From: a virus
Length of the DNA stretch: 57,473 nt
Direction: 5' to 3' (one strand)
IMG/VR virus record: IMGVR_UViG_3300036985_006568
Span: 1 to 57,473 of that record
Shown here: positions 1,178 to 57,268 of the stretch, piece by piece
Position numbering within the stretch: position 1 is the first letter of the stretch
Layout of the letters: each line of letters starts with the position of its first letter
Notes under the pieces: model-generated
Seen by the model: only the letters and a program-made list of their open reading frames with translations
The model's database searches: none
Told to the model about the DNA's origin: nothing
Program-made: the position numbers and the translations under genes

Positions 1178-2347
1178 TTAGTTTGTGGGAATTGAGAATT
1201 TAAGTTCGTCATGCCTTACTCCTAGAAGATTACTCAGGTCCCTTATGAGCATCTCCTTTTGATTAAATCGCATGGCGTAACTAGGGTGGCATGTTTTGTA
1301 TATCTCGGGGTATACTGCGAGAGATTGTAGATAACCTTGACACCGTGTCTTAACCCCATCTAAAGCCTCATTCCCGAGACAAAGTATACGTAGATTTGGT
1401 TTTTTCTTCAGTGCCTCAGTTATTCCGATCGCACCATAATGATCGTTGACATTAATGTAGATGGCCCGTGTTTCATCAAACCCGATCTCATGGAGACAGG
1501 TAGAAAGAAACAAAGATGAGTGTGAATAATCAAGGAATGGATATCTAATGGCCCTATATTTAGGATTGCACATGTCCCCAACAATGAGCCATTCAGCCGT
1601 ATCTAGGAAACCCCCAAAATTATGGTTGTATCCATTTGTTTCACCGTTCTGTGGTTGACCTCGTTTTGTTACAAATGCGGGTTGTGACTGCCAGCGGGCA
1701 TCCACCTTGTCGAGGGTTAATAGGGCGAAATCATTAACTGTTGTTTTATTGGCAATGTTCTCCGGAAAACAATACCTTAGAAAATCATCTCGGTCCTTTA
1801 CCCCACCAAGTCTGGTCAGTTGTGAGACGTAATCATTGCCTGTACTATCTTTATTTCCATCCCAGAAGTCTAAAAATCTTTTTGCAACATTCCTCTGGTT
1901 ATCATACATCTCATAACGAGTATTTTTCATCTTATTAAATAAGATATTGTGGTCATCGATATTTTCTGGTATACAAACAACGTTTACGGTTCCCATGCCG
2001 CGAAAAGCCCTATCCATCATACGTCCCATGTGGGGCCACTTAGATCCACCACGATAGACACTAGCGTAAACTCCTTCCGACATCCACTGTCTATCTATGA
2101 CCACTATCCCGAAATGAGACCACTTATCTGCTAGGTGTAGGGCTGCAAGCTGATACAGAAACATGTTGTCGGGATATTTGTAGGATAGGTGGTAGTACTT
2201 ACTATATTTCGGTCCGGCTATCTTTAATAGTTCCTTTGCAAGGGTTGTTTTACCTGTTGCATCAGGCCCATCTAAGATAACAACTCCATGGTACGGGATG
2301 AGTCTTTGTTTTGCATGAACCATTCCGTTACTTACTCCGTAAGGCAT
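1178..2347 (-). CDS. Deoxynucleoside monophosphate kinase with C-terminal UDG-like domain
   Basis: 389 residues in two parts. Residues 20-200 look like a thymidylate/dNMP kinase: P-loop DGPDATGKTT (26-35), then a DRQWMSEGVY segment (86-95) like the DRY/DRW nucleotide site of this fold. Residues 245-375 resemble the uracil-DNA-glycosylase fold seen on phage kinases: WLIVGDMCNP, a conserved PFLDYSHSS segment, INVNDHYG, LCLGNEAL and CHPSYAMRF. Expected chemistry is phosphorylation of a (modified) dNMP by ATP in the cytoplasm. The role of the C-terminal domain is unknown. GAGGAG precedes the ATG and overlaps the MazG-like gene upstream. With the hydroxymethylase homologue and the pyrophosphorylase-like protein it could supply a modified dNTP. 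Confidence 0.82.
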   Translation of the reverse strand: MPYGVSNGMVHAKQRLIPYHGVVILDGPDATGKTTLAKELLKIAGPKYSKYYHLSYKYPDNMFLYQLAALHLADKWSHFGIVVIDRQWMSEGVYASVYRGGSKWPHMGRMMDRAFRGMGTVNVVCIPENIDDHNILFNKMKNTRYEMYDNQRNVAKRFLDFWDGNKDSTGNDYVSQLTRLGGVKDRDDFLRYCFPENIANKTTVNDFALLTLDKVDARWQSQPAFVTKRGQPQNGETNGYNHNFGGFLDTAEWLIVGDMCNPKYRAIRYPFLDYSHSSLFLSTCLHEIGFDETRAIYINVNDHYGAIGITEALKKKPNLRILCLGNEALDGVKTRCQGYLQSLAVYPEIYKTCHPSYAMRFNQKEMLIRDLSNLLGVRHDELKFSIPTN

Positions 2348-2350
2348 AGC

Positions 2351-2845
2351 TTACTCCTCAAAAAGGTCATCAAAACAAGGTGGTTGCCAACCTTCCGGTT
2401 TACAAGCATCAAAGAGCGTCCCTCGTTTAGATTGCTCTACACGATCAACACGCACTTTTGCCATATTTGCCTGTTGAACACGAGCAAATCCCTCGTTCCA
2501 AATCGACCAGTGTGGGTCGGTGTTATTCGCTGGTTCACTAAACCCCATTAGATTGGCCGTGCCTAGAACGACGTACACTGTATCTAGAAGACCATCAAAC
2601 GCCTCATGTAGGTTTCTTGTCGCCATCATCTCCCCTATAGGGAGAGGAACAAAAGCAAGATCTCCTCCTTGACCATCGTCACCTTGTTCAATAACGAGTT
2701 CAAATCCACAGGCAATAGCTGTTTCTATTAGTTCCTCCAGTATGAAATTTAGTCTTACCTTCATGTGATCGGGAGGTAAAAAACCCGGTTGATCTAGGGT
2801 CTTGAACCCAAACTTCCTGTGAAAAACCTCTACAAATTCTATCAT
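2351..2845 (-). CDS. MazG-like nucleotide pyrophosphohydrolase
   Basis: 164 residues from an ATG with AGGAGAG upstream; a longer reading from 2881 lacks this signal. The pattern is that of all-alpha NTP pyrophosphatases: F..KF near the start, then R-LNFILEELIETA (31-43) with the EExxE metal site, then a second helix DGLLDTVYVVLGTANLMG (85-102) with ExxD-type acids. The family hydrolyses dNTPs to dNMP and pyrophosphate. In phages with modified DNA such enzymes often remove the normal nucleotide, which would suit this neighbourhood; the substrate here is inferred. The start overlaps the stop of the gene above. Confidence 0.8.
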   Translation of the reverse strand: MIEFVEVFHRKFGFKTLDQPGFLPPDHMKVRLNFILEELIETAIACGFELVIEQGDDGQGGDLAFVPLPIGEMMATRNLHEAFDGLLDTVYVVLGTANLMGFSEPANNTDPHWSIWNEGFARVQQANMAKVRVDRVEQSKRGTLFDACKPEGWQPPCFDDLFEE

Positions 2846-3054
2846 TTTTCTCTCCTGTATGGTCGATAGGCATAATCCCATTCATTACAAAGAAAATTTA
2901 TTGCACTGTGATCTATATTCGTAGGCACATATCCACTCATTGGAGTAATCATTCCGTCATCATCTGTAAAATGTTCACCGAATTTTAACTGAGCAAAAGC
3001 GAGATCTGTATCTACTCCCCATATTCTGCGCAACTCATTTGACGCCATAGGCAT
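2842..3054 (-). CDS. Hypothetical protein, 70 residues
   Basis: An acidic small protein with no motif I recognise. It begins MPMASNELRRIWGVD; GGAG lies eight bases before the first ATG, and an ATG two codons later is possible. The TGA overlaps the ATG of the MazG-like gene, so translation is likely coupled. It lies between a methyltransferase and the pyrophosphohydrolase. Confidence 0.7.
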   Translation of the reverse strand: MPMASNELRRIWGVDTDLAFAQLKFGEHFTDDDGMITPMSGYVPTNIDHSAINFLCNEWDYAYRPYRREK

Positions 3055-3065
3055 TGAGATATCTC

Positions 3066-3647
3066 CTAGTTAGCTCGTATGATAAATTGATAATACCCAA
3101 CCATAGTGGTGATTGATCTAGTATTTTTCAACAGAAACTCGTCTATCGCTTTTTTAACCCCAGGGCAATTTGGCCATTCATAGTCGTCAAAAATTAATAT
3201 CCCACCAGTAGAAAGTCTTGGGATAATTAACTCAAGAGTCTTCCTCGTACCGATATAGGTGTCTGTATCACTATGGACGAAAGAAAATTTCTGGTATCGT
3301 TGTGTAAATGTATCTGGAAACTTACCAACCCTGTATACAACCAGACTGAATCCAATAAGACGACTCACTGCCTCAAAACTAGTGTCACAGAACTCGCCAT
3401 CCTTGTGAACATCGATAGATGGATCGGAGTTAACAAGCCCTGTGAATGTATCATATAGATAAAGAGTTTTTTCTGGTATGGTGAGTCTCATTAACTTTGC
3501 AGTATTTCCCTTATAGACTCCTATCTCAGCCATCACACCAGGTACATTTTTTGTTTTGAGTAGTTCCTGATATAATGATTGGGACTTAGTTCTACCTAGG
3601 ATTGCTCCATTACCCATCATAGACCAGATCTCTGAAAATTCCGTCAT
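3066..3647 (-). CDS. TylF/MycF-like class I methyltransferase
   Basis: 193 residues. It has the macrocin-O-methyltransferase layout: GVMAEIGVYKGNTAKLM (37-53) as the SAM-binding loop, LYLYDTFTGL (63-72) with the acid that follows strand 2, and GGILIFDDYEWPNCPGVKKA near the C-terminus with the metal-binding DD. The family methylates sugar hydroxyls on small molecules using SAM and a divalent metal. In phages these genes are often next to glycosyl- or other methyltransferases, and the target (DNA adduct, surface glycan or other) is open. GAGGAAA precedes the ATG, and the gene overlaps the cytosine methyltransferase homologue upstream by four bases. Confidence 0.85.
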   Translation of the reverse strand: MTEFSEIWSMMGNGAILGRTKSQSLYQELLKTKNVPGVMAEIGVYKGNTAKLMRLTIPEKTLYLYDTFTGLVNSDPSIDVHKDGEFCDTSFEAVSRLIGFSLVVYRVGKFPDTFTQRYQKFSFVHSDTDTYIGTRKTLELIIPRLSTGGILIFDDYEWPNCPGVKKAIDEFLLKNTRSITTMVGYYQFIIRAN

Positions 3648-4657
3648 GGTTTCCTCACATCATAAATTCTAACCACAGGGACCCCTTCGAGTTCACCCCA
3701 GGGTAGACCATTTAAAACAGCAGTCGCCATCCACTTTCCAACCGGCGCTAAAACACAACGAGATAGGAACCCAGAGATAGCTGACTCGGTGTAGGATTCA
3801 AGTTGCCAATTTTGTGGGAGACCACACAATGCAAGTAACTCCCCATAGGTAAGTTTCCTCGGTTCATGTGGGTGCCAGGCATTTATTGGAAAAAGAACCG
3901 GACATGGCTCATCTGCACGTAATCTTTGTGAGAGGAATCCGGGTTTTGTGCCGGTCTTCTTATCTTCTGGTAGTGCTTGATAAGCAGCCAGGAACTTACC
4001 TTGATGATCCTTAGATATATCCCAAATAACCTCGTCAAAGGGTCTCCTTGCAAAAACCTTCTCATTTTCAAGTACCTCTACCTCAGCTAGGACTTCATCA
4101 ACGGTCCTTTGGTTGGTGAATTCGGGAAAGATGAGTGGTGTTTGGTGAGCAATAAAGAACATGCGCTTTCTGTTTTGAGGGGCTCCTAGATACATGTTGT
4201 TTTGAAGGATGATTGACACATGGTAACCGGCGTCAATCCACTTTTTTGCTTGTAGGTCTACAAAAGTTTTTCCTTTAGTGAAGCACGTGATGACAGATTC
4301 CCACATCCAAACATTGGGTCGTATGGTTAACCCAGCCTCTACTAGCGTCGTGATGCAGTCTAATCGTGGATCATCTTGCCAGTCTACACCCTTATTACCA
4401 GCAGCTGTAGACCAAGGGGCGCAGGGTGGGTTTGTAAAGAAAAGATCAATCTCTTTGAAGTCTTCCAGGTGCCATGCTTCCTTTCCAACCCTTATGTCGA
4501 GCCCCGGGAAGTTAAGCTTGGATGTCTTTACACCATAGTCATTGTGTTCAAGCTGTGCAAGGACGTTGAACCCCGCGTCCTTGACTCCTTTAATAAAAGG
4601 TCCCCCAAATACATTACCTGCCAAGGCCGTAGGTTTCATGTTAGTGCCATCTTTCAT
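3644..4657 (-). CDS. DNA cytosine-C5 methyltransferase homologue, divergent motifs
   Basis: 337 residues from an ATG with AGGTGA upstream. C5-methyltransferase motifs appear in order: I-like NVFGGPFIKGV (15-25), IV TNPPCAPWS (75-83) with the catalytic Cys at 79, VI as WES (119-121) in place of ENV, VIII GAPQNRKRMFF (158-168), then a variable region (180-270) where target recognition would lie. C79, E120 and Q161/R163/R165 are kept, so activity is plausible. IV reads NPPCAPWS rather than GPPCQxFS, so the enzyme is an outlier. It might protect DNA from restriction or act on a modified base. The first 17 bases overlap the preceding gene. Confidence 0.85.
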   Translation of the reverse strand: MKDGTNMKPTALAGNVFGGPFIKGVKDAGFNVLAQLEHNDYGVKTSKLNFPGLDIRVGKEAWHLEDFKEIDLFFTNPPCAPWSTAAGNKGVDWQDDPRLDCITTLVEAGLTIRPNVWMWESVITCFTKGKTFVDLQAKKWIDAGYHVSIILQNNMYLGAPQNRKRMFFIAHQTPLIFPEFTNQRTVDEVLAEVEVLENEKVFARRPFDEVIWDISKDHQGKFLAAYQALPEDKKTGTKPGFLSQRLRADEPCPVLFPINAWHPHEPRKLTYGELLALCGLPQNWQLESYTESAISGFLSRCVLAPVGKWMATAVLNGLPWGELEGVPVVRIYDVRKP

Positions 4658-4928
4658 AAAATTCACCTGGTCTTGGCAAGTTGTCCTCACCATAGACCTT
4701 TTTAAGTTTACCTGAAGCGATATCCTCTTTAAATTTAAACTCCGCTTGAACTAGTCGATTCATAAGTTCTTTCACATCCCCGACTAGTAAAGTATCTTTA
4801 CCATGTTTTAATAGCAAGTTATCCATGAATCTACAAGCGGGTCCTTTTATACCAAAAATCTTTATGACGGTTAAAACCCACGTCTCGAGGGTTGAATTTT
4901 CTGGTGGGATGTGGTCATCTAGATTCAT
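4641..4928 (-). CDS. Hypothetical protein, 95 residues
   Basis: Predicted mostly helical: an acidic start (MNLDDHIPPENSTLETW), a central helix with GKDTLLVGDVKELMNRL, and a Lys-rich segment. No family recognised. Its start overlaps the stop of the class I methyltransferase upstream, and its 3' end overlaps the start of the cytosine methyltransferase homologue. A role as an accessory to the methyltransferases is only a guess from position. Confidence 0.7.
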   Translation of the reverse strand: MNLDDHIPPENSTLETWVLTVIKIFGIKGPACRFMDNLLLKHGKDTLLVGDVKELMNRLVQAEFKFKEDIASGKLKKVYGEDNLPRPGEFYERWH

Positions 4929-5827
4929 AAGTTCCTTTCCGCGATCTCATAAATAAATTCGGACCATTTATCTGAACTGGAATGACTGGTCGCACCATAG
5001 ACTATTAAACTACCAAAGTGGCAAGAGCCGATGGATGATCCGTCTTCATTAATTGTTACTCGCCTAACCTTCCAAAGACAGTTCCTGGAGTAGGCTGGGA
5101 ACAGGGGGGCAAAGATAGTTGCTAGATAGTTACTGTCGTAGTATTCCTGCAGCTGATTAAATACGTCTCTTTGAGATGGCGTCATGTAAGGTTTGTAATC
5201 CTTCATTGAGGCAAATGTCCCATGCGAGTCGACGATATCAAGTCCGGTATATTCCAACATGGCCCCAAATGCTTGATAACTCATCTCATTCACATGGTTC
5301 CCTGCAGCCCCCGTTTCGGCATTATAGCAAGGTGTGGAGATGAAGGCAACACCTTCCTCTGTCAGGTGATCATGGATCCCCCTGAGGAGTTTCAGTGTTC
5401 CTTCTGGCTCCACATGCTCAGCAACCTCAAAACAGATGATCACATCATACTTATCGGGGATCTTTTCTGACGGTGTGAATTGATCTGGGAACACACAATT
5501 CTGAATCAAACGTAGTGGGAATTTACCACTTCGCAGCATCTCAGGAATTGTAAGGGCATTGTAGTCAACACCTACGTAGCATCCCCCTTCTTCTGGTACT
5601 GGGATCAATCTACTCGAATACATGAGCTTTGCCAGGGGGACTTCTCTCCCACAACCCACATCTAGGATCTTTAGAGACTTGTATCGTCTACTTGCACTCA
5701 TGTATTTTACCACATGAGTCCAACGAAGACAGTGGGCAATATAGTCCCTATGCAAAAATCCACGAGCCTCAGCTTGATCAATACTAAGATGCGTGTTGTC
5801 GATCTCTTTGCCTCTGATGTTTGTCAT
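4925..5827 (-). CDS. Class I SAM-dependent methyltransferase
   Basis: 300 residues from an ATG preceded by AAGGGG; an upstream TTG at 5866 is weaker and would overlap the preceding gene. SAM-binding motif I is LKILDVGCGREVPLAKL (near 52-68), motif II YVGVDYN (85-91), and post-motif II CFEVAEHVEPEGT (near 132-144), like the UbiG/Methyltransf_11 group. A C-terminal half of about 130 residues has no motif I know. Substrate unknown. It is the third methyltransferase in a 2.8-kb block. Confidence 0.85.
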   Translation of the reverse strand: MTNIRGKEIDNTHLSIDQAEARGFLHRDYIAHCLRWTHVVKYMSASRRYKSLKILDVGCGREVPLAKLMYSSRLIPVPEEGGCYVGVDYNALTIPEMLRSGKFPLRLIQNCVFPDQFTPSEKIPDKYDVIICFEVAEHVEPEGTLKLLRGIHDHLTEEGVAFISTPCYNAETGAAGNHVNEMSYQAFGAMLEYTGLDIVDSHGTFASMKDYKPYMTPSQRDVFNQLQEYYDSNYLATIFAPLFPAYSRNCLWKVRRVTINEDGSSIGSCHFGSLIVYGATSHSSSDKWSEFIYEIAERNL

Positions 5828-5862
5828 ATAACCCCTTTGGAATATTTTACAAAGTGTAAAAA

Positions 5863-6099
5863 TCAATCCCCTGTATTTAGGCGAGAGGTCACAATATTGG
5901 TTTCAGGATCAAGGATATAGATTCGATTATCTTTGCCATGTTTTTCTAGGAAGTCTCTTTTTGTGGCTACATGCCACCACCAATAGGCGTCATTATAGCC
6001 GGTCCATGTTATTTTACCTGCAGCCTTTGTATAGATGGACCAGTAGATATCATTACTATATTGAGCGAAGACTGCTGTTCCAACTAGGGTAGGGCTCAT
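5863..6099 (-). CDS. Hypothetical protein, 78 residues, aromatic-rich
   Basis: Unrecognised. The centre is unusually rich in Trp and Tyr (IYWSIYTKAAGKITWTGYND then YWWWH). The ATG overlaps the stop of the gene upstream (ATGA), which itself ends in a GAGGT-containing stretch. Function unknown. Confidence 0.7.
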   Translation of the reverse strand: MSPTLVGTAVFAQYSNDIYWSIYTKAAGKITWTGYNDAYWWWHVATKRDFLEKHGKDNRIYILDPETNIVTSRLNTGD

Positions 6100-10235: not shown

Positions 10236-10760
<525 letters not shown>

Positions 10761-10761
10761 C

Positions 10762-11016
10762 TTACTCTCCGAATAGAAGGCTGATTGATTTGTACGTTCC
10801 ATCCTTCATTAATTGCTTGTCTAGGTCCTCGAATCGCTTCACATTGATAGCAGTTCCACAACCACCACGCATAATCTCGTAGAAGGTCTGTATCCCTAAC
10901 CCTCTAAATTCTACATTGGATAAGAACAGTCCACCTAGGTCGCCGTTGCAGTAGACTTTTAATCTCATCATGACGTCGTTTGAGATATAATCTATCTTCT
11001 CTGTCCTTCGACCCAT
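10762..11016 (-). CDS. Hypothetical protein between two pentapeptide-repeat genes
   Basis: 84 residues, begins MGRRTEKIDYISNDVMMRLK. Contains GGLFLSNVEFRGLGIQTFYEI and a C-terminal Lys-rich helix. No known family. AGGAG is well placed before the ATG. Its stop overlaps the ribosome site of pentapeptide protein 1, and the three genes form one coupled unit. Confidence 0.72.
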   Translation of the reverse strand: MGRRTEKIDYISNDVMMRLKVYCNGDLGGLFLSNVEFRGLGIQTFYEIMRGGCGTAINVKRFEDLDKQLMKDGTYKSISLLFGE

Positions 11017-11018
11017 GA

Positions 11019-11597
<579 letters not shown>

Positions 11598-15621: not shown

Positions 15622-15633
15622 AAAAGACCCCCT

Positions 15634-15702
15634 TTGTGATTAATCACTCATGAGTAAGTGATTAATGAAATGCTCATTGAAGAGCACTTCACTAATGACT
15701 TA
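15634..15702 (-). repeat. 69-bp intergenic repeat, copy A
   Basis: Identical over 69 bases to 16015-16083 and 16337-16405. It contains the palindrome GTGATTAATCAC, a second dyad AATCACT/AGTGATT around CATGAGTA, and a TGCTC/GAGCA stem. It separates the genes at 15400 and 15704. Confidence 0.97.
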
Positions 15703-15703
15703 T

Positions 15704-16003
15704 TTAAAGAAGGATTGAAAAGGTGGAACCTCGCATGGATTCATAATTAATTAATTCACATGCTTTGAGAAGTGGCAAATAATAATTAACAATTCGCTTT
15801 ACACTTTGTCGCGTATGAAGGTCCTCTTGAATGAATGACTTAATGATGTCTTCGCGTGCACACTCACCATTCACTTCTTTGCAAGCCTTTGCAATGGCTT
15901 GCATTACAAGCGCTGCCTGAGGAGGAATGCTCCTCTTGCATGATGTATTCATGAGTGTAATTTTACACTCACATGATGTATGGTTAGTTATATTGATAGA
16001 CAT
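15704..16003 (-). CDS. Putative winged-helix protein, paralogue of the 12962 product
   Basis: 99 residues. LHTRQSVKRIVNYYLPLLKA (61-80) aligns with LKTRQEVSRVIFYYIPLLIK of the 12962-13348 protein, and the preceding helices align in pattern (ALVMQAIAKACKEV). Likely a small DNA-binding regulator. GAGGTGA precedes the ATG and joins repeat copy B directly. The placement between two copies of a palindrome-rich repeat makes autoregulation through the repeat a natural hypothesis. Confidence 0.68.
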   Translation of the reverse strand: MSINITNHTSCECKITLMNTSCKRSIPPQAALVMQAIAKACKEVNGECAREDIIKSFIQEDLHTRQSVKRIVNYYLPLLKACELINYESMRGSTFSILL

Positions 16004-16014
16004 GTTATCACCTC

Positions 16015-16083
16015 TTGTGATTAATCACTCATGAGTAAGTGATTAATGAAATGCTCATTGAAGAGCACTTCACTAATGACTTA
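16015..16083 (-). repeat. 69-bp intergenic repeat, copy B
   Basis: Exact copy of A and C. Its last three bases form the TAA stop of the 16081-16326 gene. Copies B and C also share the adjoining TCACCTC, the complement of the GAGGTGA ribosome site. Confidence 0.97.
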
Positions 16084-16326
16084 ATCATAATGAATGGTGA
16101 GGCCAACCATTCCTAATTCATTTAAATTAATCATAATAACGTTAAGTACTTCGTATTCAATGTTTGGAAAATGATTTACAAGATCATTCATTGACACTTC
16201 ATCACGCTCGTTTTTATGTTTTTTAAGGACTTTTATAAAAAACTTTTCAACATCGTTTAATTCATCTAAATGAATGAATTCTTCATCATTGATTTGAATA
16301 TCTATAATAGTAAATTCTCTTTTCAT
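16081..16326 (-). CDS. Small acidic protein, possible winged helix
   Basis: 81 residues. Helices with DVEKFFIKVLKKHKNERDEV and SMNDLVNHFPNIEYEVLNVI followed by a short beta end could be a winged helix like its neighbour, but the key TRQ segment is missing. Strongly AT-rich. GAGGTGA precedes the ATG next to repeat copy C. Function unknown. Confidence 0.62.
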   Translation of the reverse strand: MKREFTIIDIQINDEEFIHLDELNDVEKFFIKVLKKHKNERDEVSMNDLVNHFPNIEYEVLNVIMINLNELGMVGLTIHYD

Positions 16327-16336
16327 GACTCACCTC

Positions 16337-16405
16337 TTGTGATTAATCACTCATGAGTAAGTGATTAATGAAATGCTCATTGAAGAGCACTTCACTAATG
16401 ACTTA
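16337..16405 (-). repeat. 69-bp intergenic repeat, copy C
   Basis: Exact copy of A and B, between the 26-residue peptide gene and the 81-residue gene. Three perfect copies within 0.8 kb imply recent duplication or strong selection. Confidence 0.97.
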
Positions 16406-16425
16406 CTAATTATGTGTTGTTAATA

Positions 16426-42111: not shown

Positions 42112-43164
42112 ATGAAATTTAACCCAATCCAAAAGATATACATCATCGCAACAACAGGGGCGTTAGGTGATACTGTATCCACTTTTCCAACCCTTAAACT
42201 TCTAGTTGACCGTGGGCACATAGAAAAAATATTCGTTGATGGACGATTTTATGCCTTGTATCAATTATTCTTTCCACAAGAAGTTCTTGTTCCACTCTCA
42301 GAAGCCTCTATATTTATCCCGAAAGAAGAGATCACCTCAGATATTCCTAAAGAAAATATCGATCCTACCACTGGTGGAACTACCATCTTTGACTATCCTG
42401 TTAACCCAAACTTACCAATAATTAAAACATTACGTAATTTTCCTACATCAATCCATACCCACTTGGTTGATCACTTCTCAATGTCAATCTGTGACGCTAT
42501 GTTTAAGGAGCATCAAAAAGATTACCCATTAATTGATCCAGGTAAATTACCTATAAATAAGATGCTTGGTAGAAAATATGTAGTCATTGCTTACGGAGCA
42601 ACAACAGAACATCGTAGGATGCTGCCGGAAGTTCTTGCTGGTTTGGTTGATTATTTTAGTTCACGAAACATTGAGGTCGTGCTTATAGGTAAGCGAGATC
42701 ACGCTCTTAGATGCAGTAGCACAATTACTAATCCAACTTTTGATGCTATCCCCGAAGGAGTGATAAACTTTATCGATCAAACCACGATGCCTGAGGCTCT
42801 TGCCATCATACGAGAGTCTGAAATGGTGATAGGCTTAGATAACGGATTAATTCATATGGCTGCCTTGACAGATGTTCCTATTGTTGCTGGATATACAACG
42901 GTTGATCCTTACTACAGACTACCATATCGGCATGGAGTAAAGGGTTGGAATATATACACAGTTGAACCTGATTCAAATTGTAGGTACTGCCAAACTGAAA
43001 CGTTCTGTACATATGCTTTAAACTTTTTGAAATGTCAAACAAGAACTAAGGAGTGCATGAACTCCCTTACCTTAAATTCCTGGTTGTGCAAGATTAAACT
43101 AGTTGGTTCTCAATCTGAGACCATTTTTAAAAGGAGCCAGACATGGCTATTCAGAAGGTTTTAG
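42112..43164 (+). CDS. Glycosyltransferase family 9-like protein (heptosyltransferase type)
   Basis: 350 residues. GALGDTVSTFPTLKLLVDRG (16-35) is the entry of GT9/ADP-heptose transferases, and GLDNGLIHMAALTDVPIVAG (242-261) is their nucleotide-sugar site. Two central Rossmann domains fit GT-B. The Cys-rich C-terminus (CRYCQTETFC...CQTRTKEC) is unusual. It sits between fibre genes, so it may glycosylate a virion protein or change host lipopolysaccharide after infection. Overlaps the next gene by 22 bases. Confidence 0.82.
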   Translation: MKFNPIQKIYIIATTGALGDTVSTFPTLKLLVDRGHIEKIFVDGRFYALYQLFFPQEVLVPLSEASIFIPKEEITSDIPKENIDPTTGGTTIFDYPVNPNLPIIKTLRNFPTSIHTHLVDHFSMSICDAMFKEHQKDYPLIDPGKLPINKMLGRKYVVIAYGATTEHRRMLPEVLAGLVDYFSSRNIEVVLIGKRDHALRCSSTITNPTFDAIPEGVINFIDQTTMPEALAIIRESEMVIGLDNGLIHMAALTDVPIVAGYTTVDPYYRLPYRHGVKGWNIYTVEPDSNCRYCQTETFCTYALNFLKCQTRTKECMNSLTLNSWLCKIKLVGSQSETIFKRSQTWLFRRF

Positions 43165-52890: not shown

Positions 52891-53826
52891 TTAAAAAGGC
52901 CACTCTAGTGACCAAAAGTTTACGGTCTGCTTGATATATCGTGGAAGGTGAGTCCTTACCCGGCGTATCTTGTCTATCACCCTGCCATGTTTTACTTTCA
53001 TGGATTCATACTTTCTAAATTCACAGAATCCATCCTCCATCGCTTTTATATCAAAAGGGTTTCCATTGAAGTCAAACAAATCTAATTGTTCGAGGTCCAT
53101 TAACCTACAAAGGATGTGGTCCTTTAAATCGCACATCTCTTGAAGTGTTGGGGAGTGACCAAAGATTCCTTCTGCTATGCTCTTTGACCCCGGACCTATG
53201 AATAGGTAGTCGTTACTAGTGAATGGGAACTGAGGGTATAGGTAACAAAGAGAGGTGAACACCTCATATACCCTGAATGGTCCTAGGAGAGGGTATGAAT
53301 CCAACAGATGATGTATGACTCCTTTTGGTTTCTTCATCAACTGAATTAGTTGCACTGTTTGTTCGTAATTTTCCTCTACCATTTTGTAATGATCGAGGAG
53401 GTTATCTTCCCGTGTTTTACCCTCCCTAGTATGTATGAATGGCCACATGATCCCTGTATAGATATAAGTACTTGGATGTTTTTTCTGTACCTGTAGTAAT
53501 CCTTCTTTATCGAAGGGAATACCTACGGTATCAAAGTAGTTCATTATTGACGGGGACCAATGCTGTCGATAAAATAAGATAAATTTAACTTGTTCTGGAA
53601 AAGGGAGCCCTCTTATACCTCCTAACTCATACTTAGTTAGATGATTCTGTCTCCTAAATATATCTTCAAGTCGTCCAGGTCCATTTCTACGGTCCTCAAG
53701 TATAATCGGATCTGTTATCTTGTCTGATTGACCTGTTAATTCCAACATCCGGATCCCCTGGTAATATACCAGGAATTCGATATATCTCTCAAGGAGATCC
53801 GGATCCTTAATGTCGGAGGGGTTCAC
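52891..53826 (-). CDS. HMUDK-helical/aGPT-pyrophosphorylase superfamily protein (base hypermodification)
   Basis: 311 residues, GTG start after AAGGAAAG. Motifs fit the helix-hairpin-helix superfamily that includes 5-hydroxymethyl-dU DNA kinase helical domains and alpha-glutamyl/putrescinyl thymine pyrophosphorylases: KITDPIILED (36-45), RLEDIFRRQNHLTKY (52-66), KFILFYRQHW (81-90), PLLGPFRVYEVF (179-190), FTSNDYLFIGPGS (202-214) and EDGFCEFRKYE (264-274). There is no P-loop, so it is not itself the kinase. Family members replace an activated (pyrophosphorylated) 5-hydroxymethyl pyrimidine group in DNA with an amine. Placed beside polymerase and nucleotide genes. Substrate and amine unknown; this copy is quite divergent. 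Confidence 0.72.
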   Translation of the reverse strand: MNPSDIKDPDLLERYIEFLVYYQGIRMLELTGQSDKITDPIILEDRRNGPGRLEDIFRRQNHLTKYELGGIRGLPFPEQVKFILFYRQHWSPSIMNYFDTVGIPFDKEGLLQVQKKHPSTYIYTGIMWPFIHTREGKTREDNLLDHYKMVEENYEQTVQLIQLMKKPKGVIHHLLDSYPLLGPFRVYEVFTSLCYLYPQFPFTSNDYLFIGPGSKSIAEGIFGHSPTLQEMCDLKDHILCRLMDLEQLDLFDFNGNPFDIKAMEDGFCEFRKYESMKVKHGRVIDKIRRVRTHLPRYIKQTVNFWSLEWPF

Positions 53827-54167
53827 TTCTTTCCTTTCTTCACCTTCTTAGTTGGAACCTTCTTTGCTGGGGGAACTACCAACTTCTTTGAAGTTTTCTT
53901 GCTTTTTGCACAAACCTTGGGCGTGATGTAGGTAGCAAATTTGATACTTTCACCACTCAAGATCGTACAGGTGTCTTCTCCTCCTACTGATCGTTTGCCA
54001 TATACAAGGCGATCGAGAACTACAGCTTGTTTTTTCAATAGCTTAGATGCAGCATTAAAGAAAAAATTCTCGGCCGTTTGCTTATTAGACAGGCTTACAC
54101 TATTAACCTGACCATACTCAAAAAATCTAACGCGATACCTCACACCGGCTTCAATCGGCTCGTTCAT
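53823..54167 (-). CDS. Hypothetical protein with Lys-rich tail, 114 residues
   Basis: N-terminal 80 residues are compact (YRVRFFEYGQVNSVSLSNKQ), and the last 30 are strongly basic (AKKVPTKKVKKGKK), likely DNA or RNA binding. AAGGAGG precedes the ATG. The ATG overlaps the polymerase stop (ATGA), so it may assist the polymerase or the modification protein downstream. Confidence 0.7.
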   Translation of the reverse strand: MNEPIEAGVRYRVRFFEYGQVNSVSLSNKQTAENFFFNAASKLLKKQAVVLDRLVYGKRSVGGEDTCTILSGESIKFATYITPKVCAKSKKTSKKLVVPPAKKVPTKKVKKGKK

Positions 54168-56032
54168 AACTCTACCTCCTTAGCTTCGCCCCAACTTGGT
54201 CCGAGTTCTACGTCGAGTTTAAGTGGGACTTCGAGTTGTACTGCATTAAGCAAGATATCCCGGACGATCCGAGCATCCTGCAGAGTTTCAATTGGTGTGT
54301 CAACCTCATCATGTAGCGTGATGTAGGGAATATAGTCAGCATCATACATGTCTAGCATAGCTAACTTGATCATGTCAGCAGATGTTCCCTGAATAACAGA
54401 GTTCATTGCTTTATGGATGAAATACCTTGTTACAGGTGGTCCATACTCCTTGAGCGCTTCTACTTTAGGTAATGGGATGCATCCATCCGTCCATTTCCTT
54501 GGACCGAATAGTATAAAACGTCTTTTTCTTCCAAGTACTGTTTTGACGTATCCTCTGTCATTAGCAACGTGCATACATTCATCCCCGAGTAATTTGATAA
54601 AGGGGACCGCGGCATGGTATTTGTCATAGAGTATAGTCGTTTCACCCGCCGTCTTTCCAAGTTGTTCAGCCATCTTTTTCTTTCCCATTCCATAAGCCAA
54701 TCCCAGGTTGAGACCCTTGGCCTCCTTTCTTGTAATGTCTGCCATGTCGGCGATAAGTTGGTGATAGTCTGTTGATGGATCTTTGATATACCTATCCCGA
54801 GCTTCTTCTGCTCCCTTAAATCCTCGTTTATACGCGTAATGCACAGTGACTCTGGGTTCTTGCTGTGAGTAATCGAACACTCCCCATTGTGTCCCAGATT
54901 CAGGAACGAATATGGATCGTATAAGTGGGGCCAGATACTCATTTTTTGCTGGTACCTGCTGCATATTAGGGTTCGCGGAGGCAAAACGCCCTGATTTGGT
55001 GCCCCCATCATCTGATCTAACCTGTCGATACGTTGGGTATATCCTCCCATTTGTAGCCATCTCCAGGATTTTCTTTTGTATGAAGACTGATCCACCACGA
55101 TCAAGTTGCCTGGTGAATAGTAACTTCTTAAAGAAGGGATCTTCACATGAGTGAAGCCATTCTGCCTCAAAACTTGGGTTTCCTTTTCCTGTTCGTGGGT
55201 AGATAAGTCCCAACCTGTCACAAGCCTTGGCAATATCCGTCCCAGACCAGATGTCAATATCTCTTCCTGCGAGTTTACCCAATTCTGAAAGTGATTGTTT
55301 ATGCTCCTTTGATAGGCGTTCATGAATCTGTTCTCCTTTAGCATAGTCTACGGGTATCCCTAATAGTCTCATTGCTAATAGGAGTCTAGTCATGCGTGAT
55401 TCTATTTCAAATACATTCCACAGACCTTCCTCCTTCAACCGTGGAATTTGTAAGTTGAATATTTGCAATGTTAAGGCAGCATCATCTTCGCCATAAGGTC
55501 CTACAAATTTAGCTGGAAATTTCCACATGTTCTCTTTGATTTTACTCTCAGGAATTCCCATGCACTTTCCCGCTTCTTTTAATAGGCCCTCATTTTTATG
55601 AACGCCACAGTATTCAAGTGCAAGAACGTCCAACTTATAACTTCGTTTGTTCTCATCTAGTAGAGGTTCAGCAATTTGAACGTCGTAGACGGGGCCATTG
55701 ACCTTAACATCTTCAGTTAAAAGCCACTCTAGATCATATATAGTGTTGGCCCCAACCTTCGCCCCCGGTCCACTAAGTTGATCCCGCAACCAGGCGAAGA
55801 CATTAGGTGCGTCCAGATTTCCTCCACCTTCATGTCGAACAGGATAGTAGCCCTTGAAACCGTCATCTGTAGCGACGGAGATTCCAATAATATAGCCACC
55901 TCCTCGCTTACAAGAAGGTCCCTTCGTGAGTAGGTCTGGGTCTTTAGTCTCTGTGTCGAGTCCGATGAGTTTTGCATCTCGTATATCCGGAAATGTTGTT
56001 GGCGCAATCCATGTCGATTCTGGAAGTATCAC
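54164..56032 (-). CDS. DNA polymerase, family A with 3'-5' exonuclease
   Basis: 622 residues from GTG with AGGAG upstream. Exonuclease: GLDTETKD (24-31), NTIYDLEWL (96-104), YGEDDAALT (180-188). Polymerase: motif A WGVFDYSQQEPRV (383-395), motif B RKEAKGLNLGLAYG (435-448) and motif C ITLHDEVDT. Leu443 is at the place of E. coli Phe762. No 5' nuclease domain. It replicates the genome. Downstream of dCMP deaminase and coupled to the next gene. Confidence 0.95.
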   Translation of the reverse strand: MILPESTWIAPTTFPDIRDAKLIGLDTETKDPDLLTKGPSCKRGGGYIIGISVATDDGFKGYYPVRHEGGGNLDAPNVFAWLRDQLSGPGAKVGANTIYDLEWLLTEDVKVNGPVYDVQIAEPLLDENKRSYKLDVLALEYCGVHKNEGLLKEAGKCMGIPESKIKENMWKFPAKFVGPYGEDDAALTLQIFNLQIPRLKEEGLWNVFEIESRMTRLLLAMRLLGIPVDYAKGEQIHERLSKEHKQSLSELGKLAGRDIDIWSGTDIAKACDRLGLIYPRTGKGNPSFEAEWLHSCEDPFFKKLLFTRQLDRGGSVFIQKKILEMATNGRIYPTYRQVRSDDGGTKSGRFASANPNMQQVPAKNEYLAPLIRSIFVPESGTQWGVFDYSQQEPRVTVHYAYKRGFKGAEEARDRYIKDPSTDYHQLIADMADITRKEAKGLNLGLAYGMGKKKMAEQLGKTAGETTILYDKYHAAVPFIKLLGDECMHVANDRGYVKTVLGRKRRFILFGPRKWTDGCIPLPKVEALKEYGPPVTRYFIHKAMNSVIQGTSADMIKLAMLDMYDADYIPYITLHDEVDTPIETLQDARIVRDILLNAVQLEVPLKLDVELGPSWGEAKEVEL

Positions 56033-56033
56033 C

Positions 56034-56462
56034 TCAACTCCTATGAATCCATGAACGTCCAGCAGCTAACCAAAGTAATTTTGATTGGGGATGGGGATAC
56101 TCAGATGTAAATACTATTCGCTGACAGCTCGTATTTAACAGAAGTTTAATACAGGTGATGCATGGAGAGGCTGTGCAGTAACAGGTATCTATTGAATAAA
56201 CGTCATGACATTGGAGCAAGGCATTCTGCTCCGCATGGATTGCCTCACAAAGATCTAACCCCTGACCTGATGGAGCAAATGCTCCGGCACAAGGATTATC
56301 TATGCAATGAGGTAAACCAGCCGCCACGCCATTATAACCCGTTGCAATAACATGATGTCGACTATTTACTAGGACGCATCCTACCTTTCTACGAGTGCAG
56401 GTTCCCCTAGTAGAAACTAACTTTGCCATCTCAAGAAAATACTCATCATGTGAAGGTCTCAT
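56034..56462 (-). CDS. dCMP deaminase
   Basis: 142 residues from ATG 56462, which overlaps the upstream stop (ATGA), with AGGAG ten bases before. Zinc site: CEAIHAEQNALL (His and catalytic Glu) and TASPCITCIKLL (two Cys). The extra Cys/His near CTRRKVGCVL and the CIDNPC segment are typical of phage dCMP deaminases with a second zinc. It makes dUMP from dCMP, feeding thymidylate or hydroxymethyl-uracil synthesis. Confidence 0.9.
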   Translation of the reverse strand: MRPSHDEYFLEMAKLVSTRGTCTRRKVGCVLVNSRHHVIATGYNGVAAGLPHCIDNPCAGAFAPSGQGLDLCEAIHAEQNALLQCHDVYSIDTCYCTASPCITCIKLLLNTSCQRIVFTSEYPHPQSKLLWLAAGRSWIHRS

Positions 56463-57268
56463 GTGAAAAGGTCTCCTAGCCAGAGTGGGTTTGGGTTGCA
56501 ATTCTTGTTTTTCGCTACATTCCATAGGTGCTCTACAACCTCGTCATAAGAATCAAAGATATCTGTGTCTACGGATCGTATTGTAAAAATCTCACGTTTA
56601 CTTAGGATTGAGCTAACAATTTCAAATTGTTCTTTATAAAGATGCTGTGAGGCAGCATTGAAATAAAGTTCACCCAATGTTATTATACATTCTTTTTTCA
56701 TAAATGTATTAATTTGTTTCATTATTCCTAATGATAAACAACTAAAATTAAATATATCATAAGGAACACCCATCCAAGCGTCAGATGAACGCATATTCAG
56801 GAAACAATGGAGTTTATCTTCTCTTATCATCCACTGAGCGGATATTGTGCATGGAACATCTTTTGTTATCGGAGGATTCTGTCGCCATATTGTTAGAACT
56901 GCTTGACGTGATTCTCTATCATTCACTAGCGATTTAACAATATGCCCGACCTGATCTATGATCCTCGGACCATAGGCCCCAAAGAACCGTTCCCCGTCAT
57001 CGCTAAAATTTGAGATCATCTTTGAGAAGGGGGCAATCGTCTTTACTCGGTTATCACCACTCATTATCCAAGCGGCTTCTGCGGCCATGAAATGGTATCC
57101 TAATTTGCGTTCCCTTACACAAACTACCGGGTTATTCATATTGATTGTCATACTTCGCCCTAATATCTCCCTAGTTTCCTTTCCTCTAGGATTAACGGGT
57201 CTTCCATTAAAATAGACATCACTTAGTAGATAAAACCAAGATAAAGACGTTGAATTATCGAGTCTCAT
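56459..57268 (-). CDS. Thymidylate synthase/deoxypyrimidine hydroxymethylase homologue
   Basis: 269 residues. Catalytic KDVPCTISAQWM (136-147) with Cys140, Arg121 in ESRQAVLTIW, and NMRSSDAWMGVPYDIFNFS (158-176). The Asn that in thymidylate synthase recognises uracil (GLPFNI) is Asp171, as in T4 dCMP hydroxymethylase; NMRS and CT after the cysteine also follow the T4 enzyme rather than QRS and CH. So it may act on dCMP, or be a divergent dUMP hydroxymethylase. Substrate carbon (methyl or hydroxymethyl) not determined. GAGG precedes the ATG. Confidence 0.85.
   Translation of the reverse strand: MRLDNSTSLSWFYLLSDVYFNGRPVNPRGKETREILGRSMTINMNNPVVCVRERKLGYHFMAAEAAWIMSGDNRVKTIAPFSKMISNFSDDGERFFGAYGPRIIDQVGHIVKSLVNDRESRQAVLTIWRQNPPITKDVPCTISAQWMIREDKLHCFLNMRSSDAWMGVPYDIFNFSCLSLGIMKQINTFMKKECIITLGELYFNAASQHLYKEQFEIVSSILSKREIFTIRSVDTDIFDSYDEVVEHLWNVAKNKNCNPNPLWLGDLFT

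Follow-up and report, generated by a model that had tools for sequence, protein, structure and literature searches.

The window, an entire viral record of 57,473 nucleotides (IMG/VR record IMGVR_UViG_3300036985_006568, positions 1 to 57,473), encodes a divergent HMUDK_hel (PF18723) protein in the company of predicted cytosine-altering enzymes. The best explanation of the whole, which is considered on balance probable, is that this member of the HMUDK_hel family works in a cytosine rather than a thymine pathway. As the same association is found in at least 14 other phages, the protein probably contributes to an undescribed cytosine decoration; most likely, it would help to phosphorylate or otherwise decorate 5-hydroxymethylcytosine (hmC) in DNA. 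The earlier note on this DNA had suggested an undescribed modification, and the end product is indeed probably undescribed.

The known cytosine hypermodifications consist of hmC carrying a sugar or a carbamoyl group, or start from carboxymethylcytosine, and we know of a kinase/transferase route only for thymine. The occurrence of the HMUDK_hel family with both bases suggests that this route has been transferred between the two bases. The combination of HMUDK_hel with a D177 hydroxymethylase could serve as a marker for undescribed cytosine decorations and, if true, an hmC DNA kinase would give the pathways of thymine hypermodification a counterpart for cytosine. Cultures exist of several cytosine-type carriers, namely Microbacterium phages, and of a phage with the cassette described below (Stenotrophomonas phage AXL3). 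An enzyme phosphorylating hmC in DNA would be useful for hmC mapping, because the existing kinase leaves hmC untouched (PMC6457204).

Family and fold of the 311-residue protein

The ORF was confirmed as a divergent HMUDK_hel protein. The profile search proposed in the earlier note gave PF18723 as its single Pfam match (E 2.2e-12; 47.4 bits, with a curated cut-off of 25 bits), covering residues 138-279 and reaching the C-terminal half only; the assignment of the N-terminal half comes from the family alignment together with the structural model. A six-frame search detected the window record (E 3.5e-14), and 14 control genomes gave nothing. An alignment of 47 family sequences has ten invariant columns, and the window protein retains every one (R58, R87, F184, G211, P212, G213, C268, E269, K272 and Y273). 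These residues fall within the motifs by which the protein had been recognised, with the exception of TDP, whose conservation is only partial.

Structure prediction with AlphaFold2 gave a good model (pLDDT 84.5, pTM 0.82). The named proteins that it matched best in a viral library were those of the HMUDK_hel family from Nodularia phage kac68v161 and Delftia phage PhiW-14. In BFVD, a named HMUDK_hel protein was matched at an E-value of 1.4e-3 (TM 0.56/0.55), while an amino acid:DNA transferase appeared as a weak, lower-ranked match. Profile score, invariant residues and predicted fold thus bear out the claimed membership of the HMUDK_hel/aGPT-Pplase superfamily. An HhH-glycosylase fold, suspected from GxGPF motifs, was dropped because the fold search of the PDB with the model gave no match.

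No close homologues were found when viral contigs were searched with the window protein as a single sequence; relatives were instead reached through family alignments, and L017, L097, L155, L182 and L183 score 58-150 bits against PF18723. The lack of a fused P-loop had been presented as a new context, but M6 gp55, Sonora 042, ViI 130c and BouleyBill 52 are stand-alone HMUDK_hel proteins as well. PF18723 was formerly called aGPT-Pplase1, a name that persists in public records, and PF18724, the former aGPT-Pplase2, is now named amino acid:DNA transferase. Domains of the aGPT-Pplase and 5-hmdU DNA kinase types have been listed among bacterial defence genes (PMC13092281). Relatives of HMUDK_hel were also observed on contigs assigned to Patescibacteria and archaea by binning (L217, L218 and L219, one of them of 576 kb), with no thymidylate synthase (TS) homologue nearby.

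The operon, the cassette and the probable modified base

The window carries a direct end repeat of 127 bp; its genome is therefore taken as complete, so that absences count. The operon runs in the order hydroxymethylase, dCMP deaminase, family A polymerase, 114-aa protein and HMUDK_hel. The HMUDK_hel gene starts with GTG in a 4-nt overlap with the upstream stop (GTGA), behind a GA-rich ribosome-binding sequence; AAGGAG precedes the next gene. The genes for MazG and for a kinase joined to a uracil-DNA-glycosylase-like domain (kinase-UDG) lie close to the hydroxymethylase, on the other side of the end repeat, and complete a cassette of MazG, kinase-UDG, hydroxymethylase and dCMP deaminase (Table 1). 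The polymerase, TS homologue, dCMP deaminase, kinase and MazG-like enzyme that the earlier note had listed are thus all present, and its placement of HMUDK_hel in a base-modification gene set agrees with the operon and cassette genes found.

Table 1. Genes of the operon, the cassette and their surroundings in the window
Feature	Coordinates	Strand	Evidence or remarks
HMUDK_hel (PF18723) protein, divergent	52891..53826	-	311 aa, all invariant family residues kept
114-aa protein, Lys-rich tail, no family	53823..54167	-	between polymerase and HMUDK_hel, translationally coupled
Family A DNA polymerase	54164..56032	-	same operon as HMUDK_hel
dCMP deaminase	56034..56525	-	PF00383, 5.4e-21
TS homologue, dCMP hydroxymethylase-type	56459..57268	-	D143 C146 T147 D169 D177, as T4 gp42
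Thymidylate-kinase-fold nucleotide kinase fused to uracil-DNA-glycosylase-like domain	1178..2347	-	profile and fold matches
MazG-like NTP pyrophosphohydrolase, candidate dCTPase	2351..2881	-	PF01503, 25.7 bits (cut-off 21.3); phrog_671
TylF-like methyltransferase	3066..3647	-	PF05711, 5.2e-14
DNA cytosine-C5-methyltransferase homologue	3644..4693	-	PPC motif kept, Arg replaces motif-X Asn
SAM methyltransferase	4925..5866	-	PF13489, 1.9e-12

The window record has a single TS homologue, as does each cytosine-type record examined. At positions 143/146/147/169/177 (E. coli numbering) it reads DCTDD, identical to T4 gp42, in comparison with DCNDN in the dUMP hydroxymethylases SPO1 gp29, M6 and Sonora, and LCHDN in ThyA. 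Asp143 is found in all the hydroxymethylases compared and is absent from ThyA, and the best PDB match of the window protein is the CMP 5-hydroxymethylase 5b6d. It has been reported that residue 177 sets dUMP versus dCMP specificity, that N177D switches TS to dCMP, and that, in native metagenomes, no other positions track cytosine modification as well as 177 and 147 (PMC8670742). Judged by these residues, the window enzyme is predicted to be of the dCMP-hydroxymethylase type, with hm-dCMP as its product. Since the residue set is that of dCMP and not of dUMP hydroxymethylases, the pathway points to cytosine, and a cytosine pathway in the window phage is held to be highly probable, in place of the thymine pathway assumed previously. 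The suggested amine donor has nothing to support it either, because a profile scan of the proteins of this end-repeat-complete genome found no PF18724 amino acid:DNA transferase and no PF18748 (5-hmdU DNA kinase P-loop) match was recognised among those scanned.

In T4, the counterparts of the cassette genes are a hydroxymethylase, a dCTPase, a nucleotide kinase and a dCMP deaminase, and on this analogy kinase-UDG is read as a candidate hm-dCMP kinase first. Its UDG-like domain, matched to UDG TM0511 by profile (E 7.6e-5) and to 5gn2 by Foldseek (E 3.5e-3), contains GDMCNPK and HPSY motifs and no clear catalytic residue. The fusion is common among phages (203 loci confirmed in viral contigs, 80 of them kept), and no paper discussing such a protein was found. 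All the typed relatives from viral contigs have a cytosine-type hydroxymethylase. In raw counts, uncorrected for kinship, in which those of the 80 fetched relatives that have a typed hydroxymethylase are pooled with the other loci, 77 loci with kinase-UDG carry D177 and none N177, versus 8 and 47, respectively, among the loci without it. HMUDK_hel is present in the retrieved flanks of 4 of the 83 kinase-UDG loci carrying a TS homologue, so the main job of the kinase would lie elsewhere. The idea of a fixed HMUDK_hel and kinase-UDG complex was weakened by the other 79 flanks and by the relative L183, in which HMUDK_hel abuts MazG, lying directly upstream of it, and kinase-UDG is missing. In the window genome, no P-loop kinase other than kinase-UDG is a candidate partner for HMUDK_hel.

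The TylF-like methyltransferase, which none of the other loci compared has, is a possible later decoration step. The C5-methyltransferase homologue, which also occurs in the L097 and G035 genomes, has NPPC and, in a by-eye alignment that did not include CmoX, an Arg at the position of HhaI Asn304; most cassette relatives' homologues have Arg or Lys there. An Arg at this place in CmoX binds the carboxyl group of carboxy-SAM (PMC12783734). As no CmoA was recognised in the window, a CmoX-like reading of this gene is only a lead. Homologues of the SAM methyltransferase were detected by profile in 39 of the 83 kinase-UDG loci carrying a TS homologue.

Elsewhere in the window, a GT family 9, heptosyltransferase-like gene (42112-43164, +) lies among virion genes; this location and its likeness to heptosyltransferases are the reasons for keeping it out of the pathway. 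Three 85-bp repeats, 88-96% alike and possibly regulatory, were observed between small genes at 15627-16414, together with two pentapeptide-repeat proteins (10236-10802 and 11019-11597, -).

HMUDK_hel across phages and the proposed reaction

HMUDK_hel loci were fetched by family alignments and typed by their hydroxymethylase, the ViI-like phages being labelled thymine-type from the literature (PMC6449724). Among 72 representatives, 53 were labelled thymine-type and 15 cytosine-type; the cytosine-type set contains the window, isolated Microbacterium phages and five phages that have little else in common with the window. Only polymerase/replication genes and the module are common to the window and G001, G002, G003, G035 and G036 (GC 48-69%). 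The base label changes 3 times on the HMUDK_hel tree; shuffled labels change 13.7 times on average, and none of 500 shuffles gave so few changes. The set in which the window groups, with L017, L182, L183 and L097, is entirely cytosine-type (SH-aLRT 98), although this is a quick tree with long branches and the exact placement of the window, on a very long branch, is unsure. HMUDK_hel directly follows PolA in L017; in L155 it stands immediately upstream of contiguous MazG, kinase-UDG and hydroxymethylase genes, and in L097 immediately upstream of a C5-methyltransferase homologue, followed by kinase and hydroxymethylase. A Glu after the invariant Arg58, found in 51 of 53 thymine-type and 3 of 15 cytosine-type proteins, is a lead for base choice that is confounded by kinship.

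Two side observations concern these relatives. The dCMP hydroxymethylase of L097 (13608-15158, +) is split by an apparent intein directly ahead of the catalytic Cys146 (GIIAHN/C). In the T4-like Aeromonas phage 31, the 795-aa ORF233c (L220:37184-39571, -) scores 17.2 bits against HMUDK_hel, below the cut-off, and also has a structural match; it is possibly another hmC carrier.

According to the proposed mechanism, the hydroxymethylase, with the residue set observed, would make hm-dCMP, kinase-UDG would phosphorylate it by analogy with T4 gp1, and MazG would remove dCTP by analogy with T4 gp56. 5-Hydroxymethylcytosine would then be copied into phage DNA. After replication, HMUDK_hel would recognise hmC in the DNA and join in modifying its hydroxymethyl group; that hmC in DNA is its substrate seems fairly likely. 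The most likely step would be phosphorylation with a P-loop partner, for which kinase-UDG is available, and phospho-hmC would either remain unchanged or receive a further decoration from the methyltransferases nearby. The reaction is the least certain part, and phosphorylation specifically falls somewhat short of an even chance. It is conceivable, and proposed with considerable caution, that the cytosine-type HMUDK_hel forms the DNA-recognition half of an hmC DNA kinase, with phospho-hmC, or a decoration built on it, as the outcome.

The best support for a kinase part comes from Bacillus phage Goe26, in which a PF18748 P-loop kinase is fused to HMUDK_hel, with further support from the kinase neighbours of the family: M6 gp54 and Sonora 041 are separate PF18748 P-loop kinases adjoining HMUDK_hel, and BouleyBill has a Ploopntkinase3. 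This natural fusion, the adjoining kinases and the Pfam name favour a kinase partner over a rather unlikely alternative, in which HMUDK_hel would act on hmC DNA as the transferase itself or as a base-flipping reader for a glycosyl- or methyltransferase. For this alternative, however, it counts that the fold is common to amino acid:DNA transferases, one of which was found by the fold search, that the window module holds several methyltransferases, and that in the cytosine-type L035 the neighbours of HMUDK_hel are a TET-associated glycosyltransferase and a dCMP hydroxymethylase. The thymine-type L037 and L051 have HMUDK_hel with glycosyltransferase-like and radical-SAM-like genes, and L037 also a cytidylyltransferase/cupin protein, with no adjacent small P-loop kinase; their gene sets are probably another thymine decoration. 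Such pairings, and the L035 glycosyltransferase, speak against phosphorylation. PF18748 matches 10 of 40 HMUDK_hel records, and since many thymine-type genomes have no recognised PF18748 kinase, HMUDK_hel may not be a kinase part there; PF18724 matches 9 of the 40, none of them cytosine-type.

The TS homologue might instead methylate dCMP, yielding the 5mC known from phage Xp12, in which case there would be no hydroxymethyl group to act on and the role of HMUDK_hel would lie elsewhere. N177D alone makes a thymidylate synthase form 5-methyl-dCMP (PMC8670742), but D143 and T147 of the window enzyme match the T4 hydroxymethylase, and this reading is regarded as very improbable. D177 and T147 in the sole TS homologue, the absence of PF18748 and PF18724 genes from the record and the uniformly cytosine-type cassette relatives likewise oppose thymine hypermodification as in M6 and ViI, by which the TS homologue would make hm-dUMP and HMUDK_hel would help to phosphorylate hmU. 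It is scarcely to be expected here, even though all the characterised HMUDK_hel systems are thymine systems and the commercial 5-HMUDK phosphorylates hmU and not hmC (PMC6457204).

Comparison with known systems

One of the closest parallels is the thymidine hypermodification pathway of Pseudomonas phage M6. The M6 protein gp55 is likewise a stand-alone HMUDK_hel protein, comparable in size and sharing the invariant residues, and the M6 genome also encodes a TS-family hydroxymethylase and a phage polymerase. However, M6 has a dUMP-type hydroxymethylase (DCNDN), the adjacent PF18748 kinase gp54 and a PF18724 transferase, whereas the window has a dCMP-type enzyme, the kinase-UDG fusion and neither PF18748 nor PF18724. 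The two HMUDK_hel proteins share only 22% identity.

The T4 hmC system comprises the hydroxymethylase gp42, the dCTPase gp56, the nucleotide kinase gp1 and the dCMP deaminase cd. The window has the dCMP hydroxymethylase residues of gp42 and a dCMP deaminase, and its MazG and kinase-UDG would correspond, by analogy, to gp56 and gp1. T4 glucosylates its hmC, whereas no T4-type glucosyltransferase was matched in the window, which has HMUDK_hel, the kinase-UDG fusion and the methyltransferases instead. In the literature searched by name, a scope that leaves out key pathway papers, no mention of an hmC DNA kinase was found.

In the carboxymethylcytosine system of CmoX, CmoA and CmoY (PMC12783734), the likeness lies in the Arg of the window C5-methyltransferase homologue, aligned to the CmoX Arg350 position in an alignment without CmoX. 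The window differs in having NPPC rather than SPPC, with no CmoA or amide ligase recognised.

The Microbacterium phages BouleyBill, Pajaza, Golden and Koji combine HMUDK_hel with a dCMP-type hydroxymethylase, as the window does, although their HMUDK_hel proteins form a separate cytosine-type clade. A P-loop kinase is adjacent in some of them, as in BouleyBill, and the kinase-UDG fusion was either not found in the regions examined or weakly matched in Pajaza (E about 1e-3). Finally, Stenotrophomonas phage AXL3, in which a search for HMUDK_hel gave no match, has the same cassette as the window, with methyltransferase, MazG, kinase-UDG, hydroxymethylase and dCMP deaminase. Its DNA was cut by 2 of 37 enzymes, TasI and Tru1I only, whose sites contain no G or C (PMC7504290), a restriction pattern that fits the replacement of cytosine.
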